Source: Devosia sp.
GTDB taxonomy: Bacteria > Pseudomonadota > Alphaproteobacteria > Rhizobiales > Devosiaceae
NCBI GenBank assembly: GCA_028290665.1
Contig: JAQGJK010000026.1
Location: 216,861 to 280,860 of the forward strand
Direction: 5' to 3'
Length of the DNA: 64,000 bases
This document shows, in pieces, positions 4,205-57,701 of this stretch. The notes under the pieces are model-generated. The model did no database searches and had not been told where the DNA came from. It saw only the letters and a list, made by a program, of their open reading frames with translations. How positions within the stretch are numbered: the first letter of the stretch is position 1; each line of letters starts with the position of its first letter. The translations under genes and the position numbers were made by a program.

Positions 4205-4627
4205 CTACGCGCCCTCCCCGCCAGCTTCGAGCGCCAGCACCACCGAAACGATGCTGCCGAATACCGTCAAGTAAACGCCGAGATCGAACAGCATCGGCGT
4301 CGACACGCTTATCGGCGTGCCGAACAATTGCACCTCGGCCCACAGCCCGGTCAGGAACGGCACGTCATAAAACACCGACAGCACCCCGGCGAGCGCCGCC
4401 AGCAGCACCCCGACCCCGGCATAATTGAGCGCGTCGAAATGCAGCGCCCGGCGCGTCGCCATAACGCCATTGGCCATGCCGAGCAGCGCCATGGCCGCCG
4501 CGGCGATCAACCCACCGACGAAGCCGCCACCGGGCTCGTTGTGGCCGCGCAGCAGCAGATACAGCGAGAACACCAGCATCGCCGCGACGATCACCGGCGC
4601 CATGGTGCGGAACAGGAGCGAGTTCAT
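4205..4627 (-). CDS. mnhB: Mrp-type Na+/H+ antiporter subunit B
   Basis: [27 protein letters not shown] is the MnhB motif. Confidence 0.93.
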
Positions 4628-7176
4628 GCCCCACTCCCGTCTGGCCGAAGCTTTGCCTCTACGGGGTGAGCAGCCTGTGCCTTTAAATCCGGCACGCTTA
4701 ATGCCGGCACCAGCACGATCGGCGGCCGCCGTCGCGGCTTTCGCACCGTCGTTGGCAGCACCGGCATTGCCGCTGGCTTGCTCCGGCGCAGCAGCGCCAG
4801 CACGGCAATCCCCGCCGCCAGTACCACCGAAATCTCTCCGAGCGTATCAAGGCCACGGAAGTCGACGATGATGACATTGACGATATTGCGCCCATGCGCC
4901 TCGGGCACGCTATGCGCGGTAAAAAACTCTGCCAGCCGCGGGTCGAGCGGATGCGACAGCACCAGCAGCAGCGCCGCCGTTAGCCCGACGCCGCACAGCA
5001 CCGCCAGCGTTCCGTCGCGCAGCAGGTCCTCGATTTCACGCGGATCGCGGCGGTCGAGCGCCAGCCGCGTCATCACCAGCGTCAAAATCACCACCGCCAG
5101 CACTTCGACCACCAGTTGCGTAAACGCCAGGTCGGGGGCGCCAAACACCAGATACACCAACGCCACGGCCAGCCCTTGCACCCCGAGTGCGACGATGGCG
5201 CCGAGCCGCGTCCGCGCTAGCAGCAGCGCCACCAGCCCGGCAGCGGCAAGAGCAAAAATCCCCCATTCGTAAAACCTCAACTGCGGCAGCAGCGGCCATG
5301 GCGGCAGCGCCCGGTAGCTCAGCATCGGCACGAACAGAGCCAGCGCCAGCAGGCCGAACACCGTCACCACATAAAGTTCGAGCCGCCCGTGATGGATAAA
5401 CCGCGTCACCGCCCCAGCCAACCGGATCAGCCCGAACATCGCCCGATCAAACGCGGCATCGAAGGTAAACCGCACCGCTCCCTGCACCCGCCGCAGCAGT
5501 GTCCGCAACTGGTCGAGCCGCGCAAAAGTCGCCGCCGCCACACCCCAGGTCAGCAGCGACAACCACAGGGCCAGTGAACCGAAATCCGGCACAAGACTCA
5601 AATGACTTGCAACCGCCCGCCCCGCCACCGCCGAAGCAGCCGGCGCGATAGCCATCATGCCGAACCACCCGATCAGCACCGCCGCCCCGATACCCGCCGC
5701 CGCCAGCACCAGCGGCCCGAGCAGCAGGCTCAGGCCCGCCTCATGCGCCCGCTTGGGAGTTTGCACAATCGGCCCGAGGAACGGCCTGATGGCGATGGCG
5801 AGCGCAATACCCCCGAGCACGCCATTGCCCAGCACCGCGACGATCAGCGCCGCCAGCTCAAGGCCACTGCCCCCGAGTGCCAGGTACAGTTCCTCCTTGC
5901 CGAAGTAGCCGAGCGTCAGCGGCAGCCCCAGCATCGACAGCGCCGCACCCGCCGCGGCAAGAAAACTCAGCGGCATCCGGCGCGCGAGGCCCGACAGCGC
6001 CCCGAGTTCGCGCGTCCCGGTCGCATGGTCGATCGCCCCCACCACCATGAACAGCGCCGCCTTGTAAAGCGCGTGCCCGACAAAATACAGCATCGCCGCG
6101 CTGACCGCCGCATCGGAGCCGAGCCCCAGCATCAGCACCAGCAGCCCGAGCGAAGCGATGGTGGTTTGCGCCAGCATCAGCTTGAGATCAGTCTGCCGCA
6201 ATGCCGCCACCGCGCCCCACAGCAGCGTCACCCCGCCGACAGCAACCAGCGCGCCGGTCCACGCCTCGGTCCCGCCCAGCACCGGCGACAGCCGCGCCAG
6301 CAGGTAAATCCCCGCCTGCACCATGGTCGCCGAATGGAGGAACGCCGACACCGGGGTCGGCGCCTCCATCGCATTGGGTAACCAAAAATGAAACGGCACC
6401 TGCGCCGATTTGGTGAATGCCGCCAGCAGCACCAGCAGCAGTGCCGGCAGGTAACCCGCGGTGCCGCCGAGACTGCCGCCGGCCAGCAAATCGCTCACCC
6501 GCCAAGTCCCAGTCATCGCCGCCAGCAGCACCGCGCCAAGCAACAACGCCAGCCCGCCAATGCCGGTCACCAGCAGCGCCTGGACCGCCGCCCGCCGCGC
6601 CGCCTGCCGACCCCGGTCAAAACCGATCAGCAAAAACGAAAAGACGCTGGTCGCCTCCCAGAACACGAACAGCAGCACCAGATTGTCGGCCAGTACCAAT
6701 CCGAGCATCGCCCCGGTGAACCCGAGCAGCAGCGCCAGCAACCGGCCGAGGTCCGGGTGACCCCGCAAATACCCGCCGGCGTAAATCAGCACCACCGCTC
6801 CGATGCCGCTGATGGTCATCGCGAATACCAAACTGAGGCCATCGAGTCGCAGGTCGAGACCGATGCCATAGCTGACGATCCAGTCGAGATGCACCAGGAT
6901 GATTTCGCCGCCGGCGACCCGTTCGACCAGCGTCGCGAGGTAAGCGAACATCGCCGCAGGCAACACCGCAAGCAAAACGCCGGCAAACCGCCGCAGGACA
7001 AGTGTCATGCCTGCAGCGACAAGCGCCAGCAGCAACGGGGCGACCGGGAGCAGCGCCAGCAGCAAATCGGGGCGAAACGGCAAGCGAACTGGTCCCAAAA
7101 CGGCAAATCGCCCGCAATCTAGCGGCTGGCACCGGCAGGACAACCCCTCAACCGGCCCGACAGCCAATTGCCACAA
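4624..7176 (-). CDS. mnhA: Mrp-type Na+/H+ antiporter subunit A (start uncertain)
   Basis: Long polytopic protein with proton-antiporter core ([43 protein letters not shown]) and MrpA C-terminal domain ([24 protein letters not shown]). Confidence 0.93.
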
Positions 7177-54087: not shown

Positions 54088-56010
54088 TTACCAACCCCCG
54101 CCGCCGCCACCGCCACCGCCACCGCCTGAAAATCCACCACCGCCGCCGCCACCTGACGATGACGACGACACCGGCTGCGCGGCGATCATCGCGGCGCTCA
54201 TCCCGGCGGCGACCGAGGCGACGGAATTGGACAGTTTGCCAGGCGAAAAACTCGACCCGGAATACCACAGCGGGCGGTAAGCCCCGGCGGTCGCGCCGGC
54301 CACGGCGTTGAGGGCGAGTGCAGCCTCGAAGTGCTTGGACCACGGTTTTTCGACCCCGAGCGCGATGGCGAAGGGCAGGATGCCTTCGAAGCGCTCTACG
54401 GTCAGCGGTGGCTCGGCGACGATGTTGAGGCGATTTTCCTCGGCGGTGTCCATATACATGCGGAAGCCCTCGATCTGGTCCATCACCTTGCGGCCCTGCA
54501 CCGTCGGGGCGCGCATCAGCACGGCGAAGATAACGTTGGTGAGGGTGATCGAGGCCGCCCCGATGATGGCGGCGCTGAACGACAGGCCGGAAAAGATCGA
54601 GGCGATACTACCGCCGAGATTGATCAGCACGATGACGATGCCGATCCCGATGCCGATTTTCGAGATGCCGGCGCCGGTCCACAGCGATTTGAACACCCCG
54701 GTAAATAGCCCGAGGAACACGCCGGCGAATGCCGCAGCGCCGAGCCACACCCAGTCAAGCACGCCGGTCAGCGCCATGAGCAGCAGGCAGGCCATCGACA
54801 ACAGGAACCCGACGATGATGTAGCCGAAGTTGTTCTTGAAATAGACCTGCCGGTTTTCCTTTTCGATCGTCGCGATGAACTCCCCCCGCTTGGCGTTGAG
54901 CTTGGGGCCGGTGGTAGTGTCGATGGTCAGCGTGCCGCTCGCGGCGATGTGGTCGTAAACCAGTTTTTCGCCGGCCGGCAGCGCGTCCGGGCGGGCATTG
55001 GTGAGGGTCAACCGCAACGCCTTGCCGGCATTGTCGATGGTGAGGAGGCCCTTGGCGCCGAGGTCGAAAATCGCCGAGGTGAACGCCGTCCAGCCGGTCT
55101 GCTGCCAGCCCATGTAGTGGACGAAATGCGCCAGCGCCGGCGAAAAGCCCTTGGGCGGATGGAACAGCGGAACGATGGTGCCGCGCGCCGGATCGCGCCC
55201 GACAGCGTTCCATGCGTACAGGAAATACCCGAGCACGATCAGCACCGACAGCGCCGGCAGGATCAGGTCCCGGTGGTCCGAGAGCCAGTACCAAAAGGCG
55301 GTGGCGCCATCGGGCTCGGCCACCACCCCTTTCGGAAAATTGACGAACACGCTCATCCCCTCATAGGGCGCGAGCGGGCTGGTCAGCTTGAAACTGATGG
55401 TGTTGGGCGTGGCGCCCGGGACGATTTCGACATTGGATTCGGTTGATCCGAACCCGCCGGTATAACCGCCCGATTGCCGCACCACGGCGCCCTCGGGCAG
55501 CGTCAGCGTCGCCGTCGCCCGCCGGATGGGAAATTCCCAATAATTGCCGGTGGCGTTCCAGTACAATTCGTCGTGGTCGATGAAAAACCGGGCCATCCGC
55601 GTCGAGGTGTATTTGACGCGGTAGCGGTGCGGCCCGGTGCTGATCAGCACATCGGGATCGCCGATGCGGATGCGGATGCCGCCCTGGATGCTCTCGGTCG
55701 AATAGGGTTCGGCCTTGCCGTCGCGCAGCACCTCCAGCACGTCGAGATCAGAACGCAGCCGGGAGCCGTCATCGTTGATCAGCACCGTCGGAATGTCGCG
55801 AAAAATACCGCGACGGATCGAGTTGCCCTCGGCTGTGACTTCGATGGTTTCGGTCACCGTAACGGTGCCATCGGTCGCCAGCACGACATTGCTGTCGAAG
55901 CCCCGGATTTCCTCGCGGGCAATAGCCGGGACCGCGAACAGCAAAAGGGTAAGAAACGCCAGTAGCCAGGGCTGCCCCGTCGAGCAGTGGCGAGAAACCA
56001 TCCTCAGCAT
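54088..56010 (-). CDS. DUF2207 membrane protein with poly-Gly C-terminus
   Basis: IRGFDSNVVLATDGTVTVTETIEVTAEGNSIRRGIFRDIPT; C-terminus SSSSSGGGGGGGFSGGGGGGGGGGGW. Confidence 0.92.
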   Translation of the reverse strand: MLRMVSRHCSTGQPWLLAFLTLLLFAVPAIAREEIRGFDSNVVLATDGTVTVTETIEVTAEGNSIRRGIFRDIPTVLINDDGSRLRSDLDVLEVLRDGKAEPYSTESIQGGIRIRIGDPDVLISTGPHRYRVKYTSTRMARFFIDHDELYWNATGNYWEFPIRRATATLTLPEGAVVRQSGGYTGGFGSTESNVEIVPGATPNTISFKLTSPLAPYEGMSVFVNFPKGVVAEPDGATAFWYWLSDHRDLILPALSVLIVLGYFLYAWNAVGRDPARGTIVPLFHPPKGFSPALAHFVHYMGWQQTGWTAFTSAIFDLGAKGLLTIDNAGKALRLTLTNARPDALPAGEKLVYDHIAASGTLTIDTTTGPKLNAKRGEFIATIEKENRQVYFKNNFGYIIVGFLLSMACLLLMALTGVLDWVWLGAAAFAGVFLGLFTGVFKSLWTGAGISKIGIGIGIVIVLINLGGSIASIFSGLSFSAAIIGAASITLTNVIFAVLMRAPTVQGRKVMDQIEGFRMYMDTAEENRLNIVAEPPLTVERFEGILPFAIALGVEKPWSKHFEAALALNAVAGATAGAYRPLWYSGSSFSPGKLSNSVASVAAGMSAAMIAAQPVSSSSSGGGGGGGFSGGGGGGGGGGGW

Positions 56011-56023
56011 GATGCGCCGCCGG

Positions 56024-56581
56024 TCAGAACTTGACAGTCGGCACGGCGCGGTCGGCGGCGTTTTCGAGTTCGAAATACTCGGCCTTCTTGAAGCCGAAAC
56101 TGTTGGCAACGAACACCGACGGGAAGCTCTCGACGGCGATGTTGAGGTTGCGCGCGGCGCCGTTGTAATAGCGGCGGGCCAACTGGATTTCATCCTCGAC
56201 AGTCTGCAGTGCGCCCTGGAATTCGAGGAACGTGGTGTTGGCCTTGAGGTCGGGATAGGCCTCGGCGGTGGCGATCAGCCGCCCGAGCGCCGATGACAGC
56301 TGGCCTTCCGCGGCGGCGCGCTGTTCGGGCGTCCCGCCGGCGACACTCGTGGCCGCGGCGCGGGCATTGGTCACCGCTTCGAGCGTTTCGCGCTCGTGGC
56401 TCATATAGCCCTTCACTGTCTCCATCAGATTGGGAATGAGATCGGTGCGGCGCTTCAGCTGCACGTCGATGCCCGACCAGCCCTCTTCGGTCAGCTGCCG
56501 GTTTTTGACCAGGCTGTTGTAGAGCACGATGGCGTAAACGACGATGGCGGCAATGATGCCGAGCACGATCCAGCCGAACAT
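56024..56581 (-). CDS. lemA: LemA family protein
   Basis: YNSLVKNRQLTEEGWSGIDVQLKRRTDLIPNLMETVKGYMSHERETLEAVTNARAAA...YNGAARNLNIAVESFPSVFVANSFGFKKAEYFEL. Confidence 0.97.
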   Translation of the reverse strand: MFGWIVLGIIAAIVVYAIVLYNSLVKNRQLTEEGWSGIDVQLKRRTDLIPNLMETVKGYMSHERETLEAVTNARAAATSVAGGTPEQRAAAEGQLSSALGRLIATAEAYPDLKANTTFLEFQGALQTVEDEIQLARRYYNGAARNLNIAVESFPSVFVANSFGFKKAEYFELENAADRAVPTVKF

Positions 56582-56683: not shown

Positions 56684-56860
56684 TCAAACCTCGTCCTCAG
56701 GCTCCAGCGGCAGCCCCGGCCGATACTTGCCCTTCCGCACATAAGCCCTCGGGTCCTTCTCGACCCGCTGCTCAAACGACCCCTGCCGCAACGACTTCGC
56801 CGCGAGATTCCGCGGCGCGATGGTCTTGCGGTTGAGCCTGGTGTGAGTGGGCGTTTTCAT
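56684..56860 (-). CDS. 58-aa basic protein resembling alternative ribosome-rescue factor ArfA
   Basis: MKTPTHTRLNRKTIAPRNLAAKSLRQGSFEQRVEKDPRAYVRKGKYRPGLPLEPEDEV; F-QRVEK...Y-RKGK matches the ArfA core motif as remembered. Confidence 0.6.
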   Translation of the reverse strand: MKTPTHTRLNRKTIAPRNLAAKSLRQGSFEQRVEKDPRAYVRKGKYRPGLPLEPEDEV

Positions 56861-56954: not shown

Positions 56955-57701
56955 TCAGAGCGTTGTCGAAGTTATCGGCGTGGTTTTCGAGGGGAGCGGG
57001 CGACCTTCGATATAGTGACCGTAAAGTGTAGTGATAATACCGACGCCGACTAACAAAGCCAGCCAGCTGGTAGCTGCCTCCCAAATGATGCCGAGCGGAC
57101 GTAGGGACCCAACCAGCATCATTGATGGGATGGAGATAACAAGCGCGGCGATAGCCGAGATGAACGCCAAGGCAAGAATATCACCACTGGCGCCACGCGT
57201 CGCATTCCATGCCTCGCCCAATCGCAGCGGTCGCTTGATGGCAGCGGCCGGAAGGATCAGCGCCAGTCGATAGAGTACGACCATGAGGATAAAGACGATG
57301 ACTGGGAAGATCAGAACCGCGCCTAGCGTTCCCCCTAGCAACGCCACCGGACTAACTAACAATGCGACGAGCAAAACAACGGGGATCGACAGTAGACTGA
57401 GCACCAGCGACCAGCCGAAATAAGCAAGAATGCGATCGCCATGAAAGCGCGGCAGCCAGCCAACCGGCAACTCGTCCAGCAGAATGAAACGGTGCCAGGC
57501 AACCGCGATCCAGAGGCTGCCCAAACCAGCAAGAAAAGAGACCAGGACGGCAAGCGGCGAGGGCGACGCGACGTCGGCGCCGCTTAGCAGCGAATACGCC
57601 GCGATTGCTGGAACGAAGTACAGCAGGATCGAAATCCGGAATGCGTACTGCAGATTGTCAAAAACTAGCCGAACGGCATGAAGAAACAGTCTTAAGCCCA
57701 A
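56955..57701 (-). CDS. Integral membrane hypothetical protein
   Basis: about 5-6 hydrophobic segments; no family assigned. Confidence 0.7.
   Translation of the reverse strand: MGLRLFLHAVRLVFDNLQYAFRISILLYFVPAIAAYSLLSGADVASPSPLAVLVSFLAGLGSLWIAVAWHRFILLDELPVGWLPRFHGDRILAYFGWSLVLSLLSIPVVLLVALLVSPVALLGGTLGAVLIFPVIVFILMVVLYRLALILPAAAIKRPLRLGEAWNATRGASGDILALAFISAIAALVISIPSMMLVGSLRPLGIIWEAATSWLALLVGVGIITTLYGHYIEGRPLPSKTTPITSTTL

Follow-up and report, generated by a model that had tools for sequence, protein, structure and literature searches.

Introduction

Does a short, basic open reading frame in a stretch of Devosia DNA of 64,000 nucleotides (the window) encode ArfA, the ribosome-rescue factor that acts with RF2, in a bacterial class from which ArfA has been reported absent, and if so, how would its production be controlled? 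A survey of 15,259 genomes recorded ArfA in none of 2,376 Alphaproteobacteria and restricted it to gamma- and some betaproteobacteria and, as BrfA, to a few Bacillus (PMC11633108); reviews likewise confine it to beta- and gammaproteobacteria (PMC8012679; PMC8874680). Control of ArfA in E. coli is encoded within the gene itself: a stem-loop in arfA acts as a transcription terminator or is cleaved by RNase III, and the resulting nonstop mRNA is silenced by tmRNA (PMC8012679). An earlier note on the window, made from its letters alone, had proposed an ArfA-like identity for the open reading frame, and the evidence bearing on that proposal is set out here.

A conserved small gene in Devosia

The stop-free minus-strand translation of positions 56684-56860 is MKTPTHTRLNRKTIAPRNLAAKSLRQGSFEQRVEKDPRAYVRKGKYRPGLPLEPEDEV, followed by the stop. 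The description of a strongly basic protein of 58 residues containing LRQGSFEQRVEKDPRAYVRKGKY is exact, with 14 Lys/Arg against 7 Asp/Glu, and the acidic end PLEPEDEV noted in place of the hydrophobic tail of ArfA is likewise seen in the translation. The ATG at 56860 agrees with the starts of orthologues; starting instead at a TTG located 36 nt further upstream would lengthen the protein to 70 residues, and no Shine-Dalgarno sequence is evident upstream of the ATG. Coordinates of the gene, its predicted segments and its neighbours are given in Table 1.

Table 1. Features of the ArfA-like locus, in coordinates of the window
Feature	Position	Strand	Basis or remark
ArfA-like CDS, 58 aa, ATG start, TGA stop	56684..56860	-	Translation, orthologues, dN/dS
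N18-K35, predicted RF2-contacting segment (N18, A21, L24, F29, RVEK)	56756..56809	-	Aligns with ArfA N14-K31; contact predicted
D36-Y46, predicted mRNA-channel basic segment (Y40, R42, K43, K45)	56723..56755	-	Binding predicted by homology
Acidic C-terminal tail R47-V58 (PLEPEDEV)	56687..56722	-	Replaces terminator-encoded hydrophobic tail of relatives
lemA, downstream neighbour, Devosia-conserved	56024..56581	-	PF04011, E 7.2e-58; synteny
DUF2207 membrane protein, second downstream neighbour, Devosia-conserved	54088..55992	-	PF09972/PF20990; synteny

Conservation in relatives, one of the checks that the earlier note had suggested, was borne out: tblastn with the protein gave matches at E<=0.1 for 25 of the 101 genomes searched, its own included, with the best relative at E 1e-11. 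Comparison with 11 named loci, from Devosia species or MAGs labelled Devosia, Hyphomicrobiales or Rhizobiales, gave dN of 0.31-0.44 and dS of 0.65-2.0. The open reading frame in Devosia is a real gene under purifying selection. The notion that it arose by chance might draw on its small size, the lack of a clear Shine-Dalgarno sequence and the overlap of open reading frames on the opposite strand, but it has practically no probability left and is refuted by conservation, with orthologues at a conserved place and nonsynonymous changes fewer than synonymous ones.

Kinship with ArfA

Single-protein searches alone would return the wrong negative on kinship with ArfA. The 58-residue protein has no match to PF03889 (ArfA) and a sub-threshold one to DUF7230 (PF23876; 22.2 bits, under the 27-bit cut-off) in hmmscan, and nothing was found for it in NCBIfam or the PDB. 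The match to the E. coli ArfA core that the earlier note had described as close is real but weak when taken alone: the local alignment to enterobacterial ArfA scores 41 against a shuffled mean of 23.4, with 12 of 2000 shuffles as good, and requires a 3-residue gap at KGKGS. The weak DUF7230 match and the empty PDB search would also suit a small basic nucleic-acid-binding protein, short, Lys/Arg-rich and probably disordered, that resembles ArfA by composition without being its kin.

Profiles built from the family give a different answer. Alignment A1 comprises 21 family members and no ArfA sequence; N18, A20, A21, L24, Y40 and R42 are invariant in it and F29 is present in at least 90% of rows. 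Searched against the PDB (177,635 distinct sequences; hmmsearch), its profile retrieved six significant entries, every one of them ArfA, with E values from 6.5e-5 to 1.3e-4 for the ArfA chains and 0.31 for the next match. Aligned by hhalign with 18 gammaproteobacterial ArfA proteins, A1 reached a probability of 94.2 (E 1.2e-7) and a score of 36.3, compared with 17.1 for the best of 200 column shuffles and 16.5 for the reversed profile. A wider alignment, A3, behaved similarly in the shuffle test; A4, a narrower alignment than the more diverse A1 and the one used for the collection scan of relatives, scored more weakly (26.1 against shuffles of at most 19.6), with no shuffle equalling the real score.

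Sequences intermediate between the two groups point the same way. Twenty of the 21 A1 members match DUF7230 at E<=1 (best 1.4e-10) and seven match PF03889 weakly (best E 0.0041). Using the A1 profile, five alphaproteobacterial relatives were found (L068, L069, L071, L061 and L054) that pass the 25.5-bit cut-off of PF03889 with 26.7-32.8 bits, so that the suggested PF03889 check, negative for the single protein, succeeds for its relatives. These are probably small unannotated genes; several carry a full or near-full KGKGSY motif, with KGKGS intact in L068 (NPVAARLSKSRFKPKTVLARKGKGSYRRRSKH), L069 and L071 (NPIAEDLRSPKYKKRIVKPKKGKGSFKRKKK). Used alone, PF03889 finds matches above cut-off in 6 of 277 alphaproteobacterial genomes. 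That column-shuffled profiles of equal composition fall short of the ArfA score, that bridging sequences pass PF03889 and that internal terminators occur at the same position as in ArfA genes makes resemblance by composition a very improbable explanation.

Kinship of the 58-residue protein with ArfA is thus supported by profiles with null controls, by bridging sequences and by the RNA-level signature of relatives described below, in line with what the earlier note had proposed. Sequence comparison also suggests that DUF7230, of which no mention was found in the literature searched, belongs to the ArfA superfamily. As the window's protein has neither a match to the PF03889 model nor KGKGS, it is not filed as a strict member of that family.

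Intragenic terminators in relatives and their absence from Devosia

In the DNA of relatives, a strong hairpin followed by a run of Ts lies immediately after the codons for RKxKHKKG and well ahead of the stop codon (in L013, for example, AAAAAGGGACATTTGG...CCAAAATGTCCCTTTTTTATT). The arrangement lies within the reading frame in most Devosiaceae relatives outside Devosia and in others of the class (L006, L010-L019, L022, L086, L093, L123, L127, L129, L136, L138, L141, L144 and L147; in L006 and L010 the hairpin is followed by four Ts only), and the hydrophobic C-terminal tail of these relatives (PFF, PFLL) is largely the translated T-run of the terminator. Three lines of evidence set these structures apart from background: Firstly, hairpin/T-run sites at or below -17 kcal/mol occur in 19 of 53 alphaproteobacterial members against 4 of 393 other ORF ends at the same loci (Fisher p 6e-16; the scanned lengths are similar, not identical). 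Secondly, when each of 22 members was recoded synonymously 300 times, between 0 and 9 of the recodings attained the energy of the real hairpin; this null is conservative, as the encoded amino acids are themselves favourable to a hairpin. Thirdly, the stems covary, with at least three pair types at each of positions 4 to 10.

No such structure was found in the window's gene, where the fold z is 0.02, neither a minus-strand terminator nor any terminator call was obtained, and the tail hairpin falls inside the synonymous-codon null (48 of 300). The earlier note had seen no hairpin or terminator within the frame and had supposed that tmRNA-type control might be absent; the first observation holds and the second is consistent with the sequence, given that relatives have the internal terminator and Devosia, including the window, does not. 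Among the Devosia orthologues tested there is no hairpin/T-run site and tails fold no better than their synonymous recodings, L020 being a partial exception. Translation in the window and the Devosia orthologues ends at a normal stop after an acidic tail, and absence of the hydrophobic tail is a lineage trait of the Devosia clade. In the gene tree, built on few columns and with mostly weak support, the window and six Devosia members fall inside a group mostly with terminators, a placement which suggests that the terminator was lost in the Devosia clade; L020 and L021 are placed elsewhere. Rfam gave no match at gathering threshold near the ArfA-like gene. At one further locus from a Devosia MAG (L114, ~1364-1700), the frame extends unusually far past the core, perhaps through a frameshift or assembly error.

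Sequence motifs and predicted contacts

ArfA is not known to adopt an ordered form except when bound to the ribosome together with RF2. The segments of the family that would contact either partner can be compared residue by residue. The equivalents of ArfA Asn14 and Phe25, the invariant N18 and the nearly invariant F29, keep the 11-residue spacing seen in ArfA. E. coli ArfA uses F25, L19 and L24 to contact V198, F217 and W319 of RF2 and places its C-terminus in the empty mRNA channel (PMC5378476; PMC6299226), and F29 fits the role of F25. Replacement of Ala18 by Thr inactivates E. coli ArfA (PMC5378476); in an ungapped alignment K22 falls at the Ala18 position and S28 at Leu24, with the invariant Ala at position 21 one position before ArfA Ala18, whose place A21 may take. 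KGKGS, invariant in the ArfA set compared, is absent as KGKGS(Y) from the 58-residue protein and from all 21 rows of A1, and the D36-Y46 segment is three residues shorter than the corresponding KGKGS-Y segment of ArfA; individual KGKGS residues are reported as non-essential in E. coli (PMC6299226).

These differences are the ground for supposing that the protein descends from an ArfA-like ancestor and kept ribosome or RNA binding, with rescue activity lost in the Devosia clade after KGKGS, the Ala18 equivalent and the terminator had gone. KGKGS and the terminator are indeed both missing, Lys stands at the Ala18 position of the ungapped alignment, the gene is absent from many Devosiaceae, and many carriers also have ArfB. 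We nonetheless judge loss of rescue unlikely, since the gene is under purifying selection in Devosia, the residues from N18 to R42 listed above are invariant across the family with F29 nearly so, and the 3-residue shortening is also found in relatives that keep the terminator, so it is not tied to the disappearance of the regulatory signature.

The release factors of the window's genome, which also encodes tmRNA, bear on the choice of partner. In its RF2, the residues aligned with E. coli V198, F217 and W319 are all conserved, on an E. coli numbering that we take partly from general knowledge; in its RF1 the switch loop lacks a Trp, and the F217 position is occupied by Ala. Recruitment of both RF1 and RF2, with weaker specificity for RF2, would make the protein a rescue factor of the kind of Francisella ArfT, an RF-dependent factor that is likewise short and lacks both an exact KGKGS and internal-terminator control (PMC6299226). 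The make-up of RF1 speaks against such dual recruitment, as does the reversal of motifs: ArfT has KKGGSTNKK but nothing hydrophobic where ArfA has F25; in the Devosia protein the hydrophobic residue is present and the motif absent. Kinship of mechanism with ArfT, itself reported as having evolved independently of ArfA (PMC6299226), therefore appears improbable. Burroughs and Aravind 2019 describe a broad 'ArfT family' of charged helices, found singly or as repeats within stress proteins (PMC6514570); it was considered as a home for the protein and set aside.

The prfB gene of the window's genome (L118:840-900) carries a programmed-frameshift site, AGGAGG...CTTTGAC, with the tripeptide SPY rather than SPF, which makes autoregulation of RF2 of the E. 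coli type probable.

Proposed function and regulation

Taken together, the sequence comparisons make it likely that the open reading frame encodes a divergent ArfA-type, RF2-recruiting rescue factor from a clade that has escaped terminator/tmRNA feedback. Its basic C-terminal half (AYVRKGKY) would enter the mRNA channel left empty when a ribosome runs off the end of a nonstop message, the N-x-A-A-K-x-L-x4-F-x-x-R-V segment would contact RF2, and RF2 so positioned would hydrolyse the peptidyl-tRNA without a stop codon. With KGKGS replaced by a shorter linker and the Ala18 position offset, the predicted outcome is rescue that depends on RF2 but engages the channel in a modified way. For the majority of close relatives outside Devosia, the intragenic terminator would yield a nonstop arfA message, and their protein would build up only under tmRNA limitation; lacking a terminator and ending at a normal stop after the acidic tail, the Devosia factor is expected to be produced whatever the tmRNA status.

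The wider reading carries somewhat less confidence, though we still lean towards it: that an overlooked alphaproteobacterial branch of ArfA, including DUF7230, is subject to tmRNA feedback through intragenic terminators of its own, and that the Devosia clade, whose channel motif is already shortened, also lost the terminator. The product would be a second-line rescue factor, made constitutively and altered in its binding to the channel. This branch is probably more interesting than the window's single gene. If real, it would revise ideas of when ArfA first appeared and assign a function to DUF7230, and it could explain how some alphaproteobacteria without ArfB might tolerate loss of tmRNA. The Devosia clade would offer a natural experiment in which the same factor occurs with and without an intragenic terminator, making the purpose of ArfA's tmRNA-dependent control testable, and would also test the need for KGKGS in mRNA-channel sensing.

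Comparison with other small rescue proteins

With ArfA/YhdL (PF03889) the Devosia protein shares its size, the order of Asn, Phe, Tyr and Arg, the RVEK and the basic RKGK end and, through its relatives, the intragenic hairpin/terminator, a feature that is not universal among ArfA genes; it differs in the motif, alanine offset, acidic tail and model score already described. An N-x-x-A-K-x-L ... Y-S-R-K pattern is common to it and DUF7230, a Pfam family without assigned function. BrfA of Bacillus subtilis is a small RF2-dependent factor made from nonstop mRNA via an internal terminator, as the relatives of the window's gene would be, but is described as unrelated in sequence and is Bacillus-restricted (PMC6881298; PMC8012679).

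Distribution

The ArfA-like gene, counted at E<=1e-6, is present in 28 of the 101 genomes; ArfB is present in 64. The two are not mutually exclusive (15/13 versus 49/24, p = 0.25; lowest p, in a family subset, 0.058), which makes the ArfA-like factor one among several backups and no strict substitute; complementarity with ArfB was dropped as functional evidence on account of this coexistence (p 0.06 to 0.25). No ArfB turned up in the genome of the window itself, an absence that says little as the assembly is only 61% complete. A search for plasmid copies found none, and among phages just two matches were obtained, both at E 0.5 (Roseobacter phage CRP-13 and Pelagibacter phage HTVC115P); an ArfA reported from a pelagiphage (PMC12753301) was not recovered in this search. 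Across sampled alphaproteobacterial genomes, the family profile finds members in 38 of 385 (E<=0.001), about a tenth.

Genomic surroundings

The downstream lemA and DUF2207 genes are arranged as in the window in 9 of the 11 named Devosia-type loci; lemA is probably context outside the mechanism, and the DUF2207 gene is context only. At its C-terminus the DUF2207 membrane protein has a long low-complexity stretch rich in Gly and Ser (54088-54200 of the window, minus strand). Upstream of the ArfA-like gene, the window has an open reading frame at 56955-57701 without a Pfam match. At several Devosia loci (L106-L110, L113, L115 and L116) the upstream gene resembles what we take to be moaB, and at two of these loci, L106 and L115, the stop codon of that gene falls just a few bases short of the ArfA-like ATG, close enough to suggest translational coupling. 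In L109 and L110 (~4400-4940), a small basic open reading frame, MIRKL[RK]SGEYRLYS[KR]KTDPKTGKRRNLGTF..., lies between the moaB-like and ArfA-like genes.
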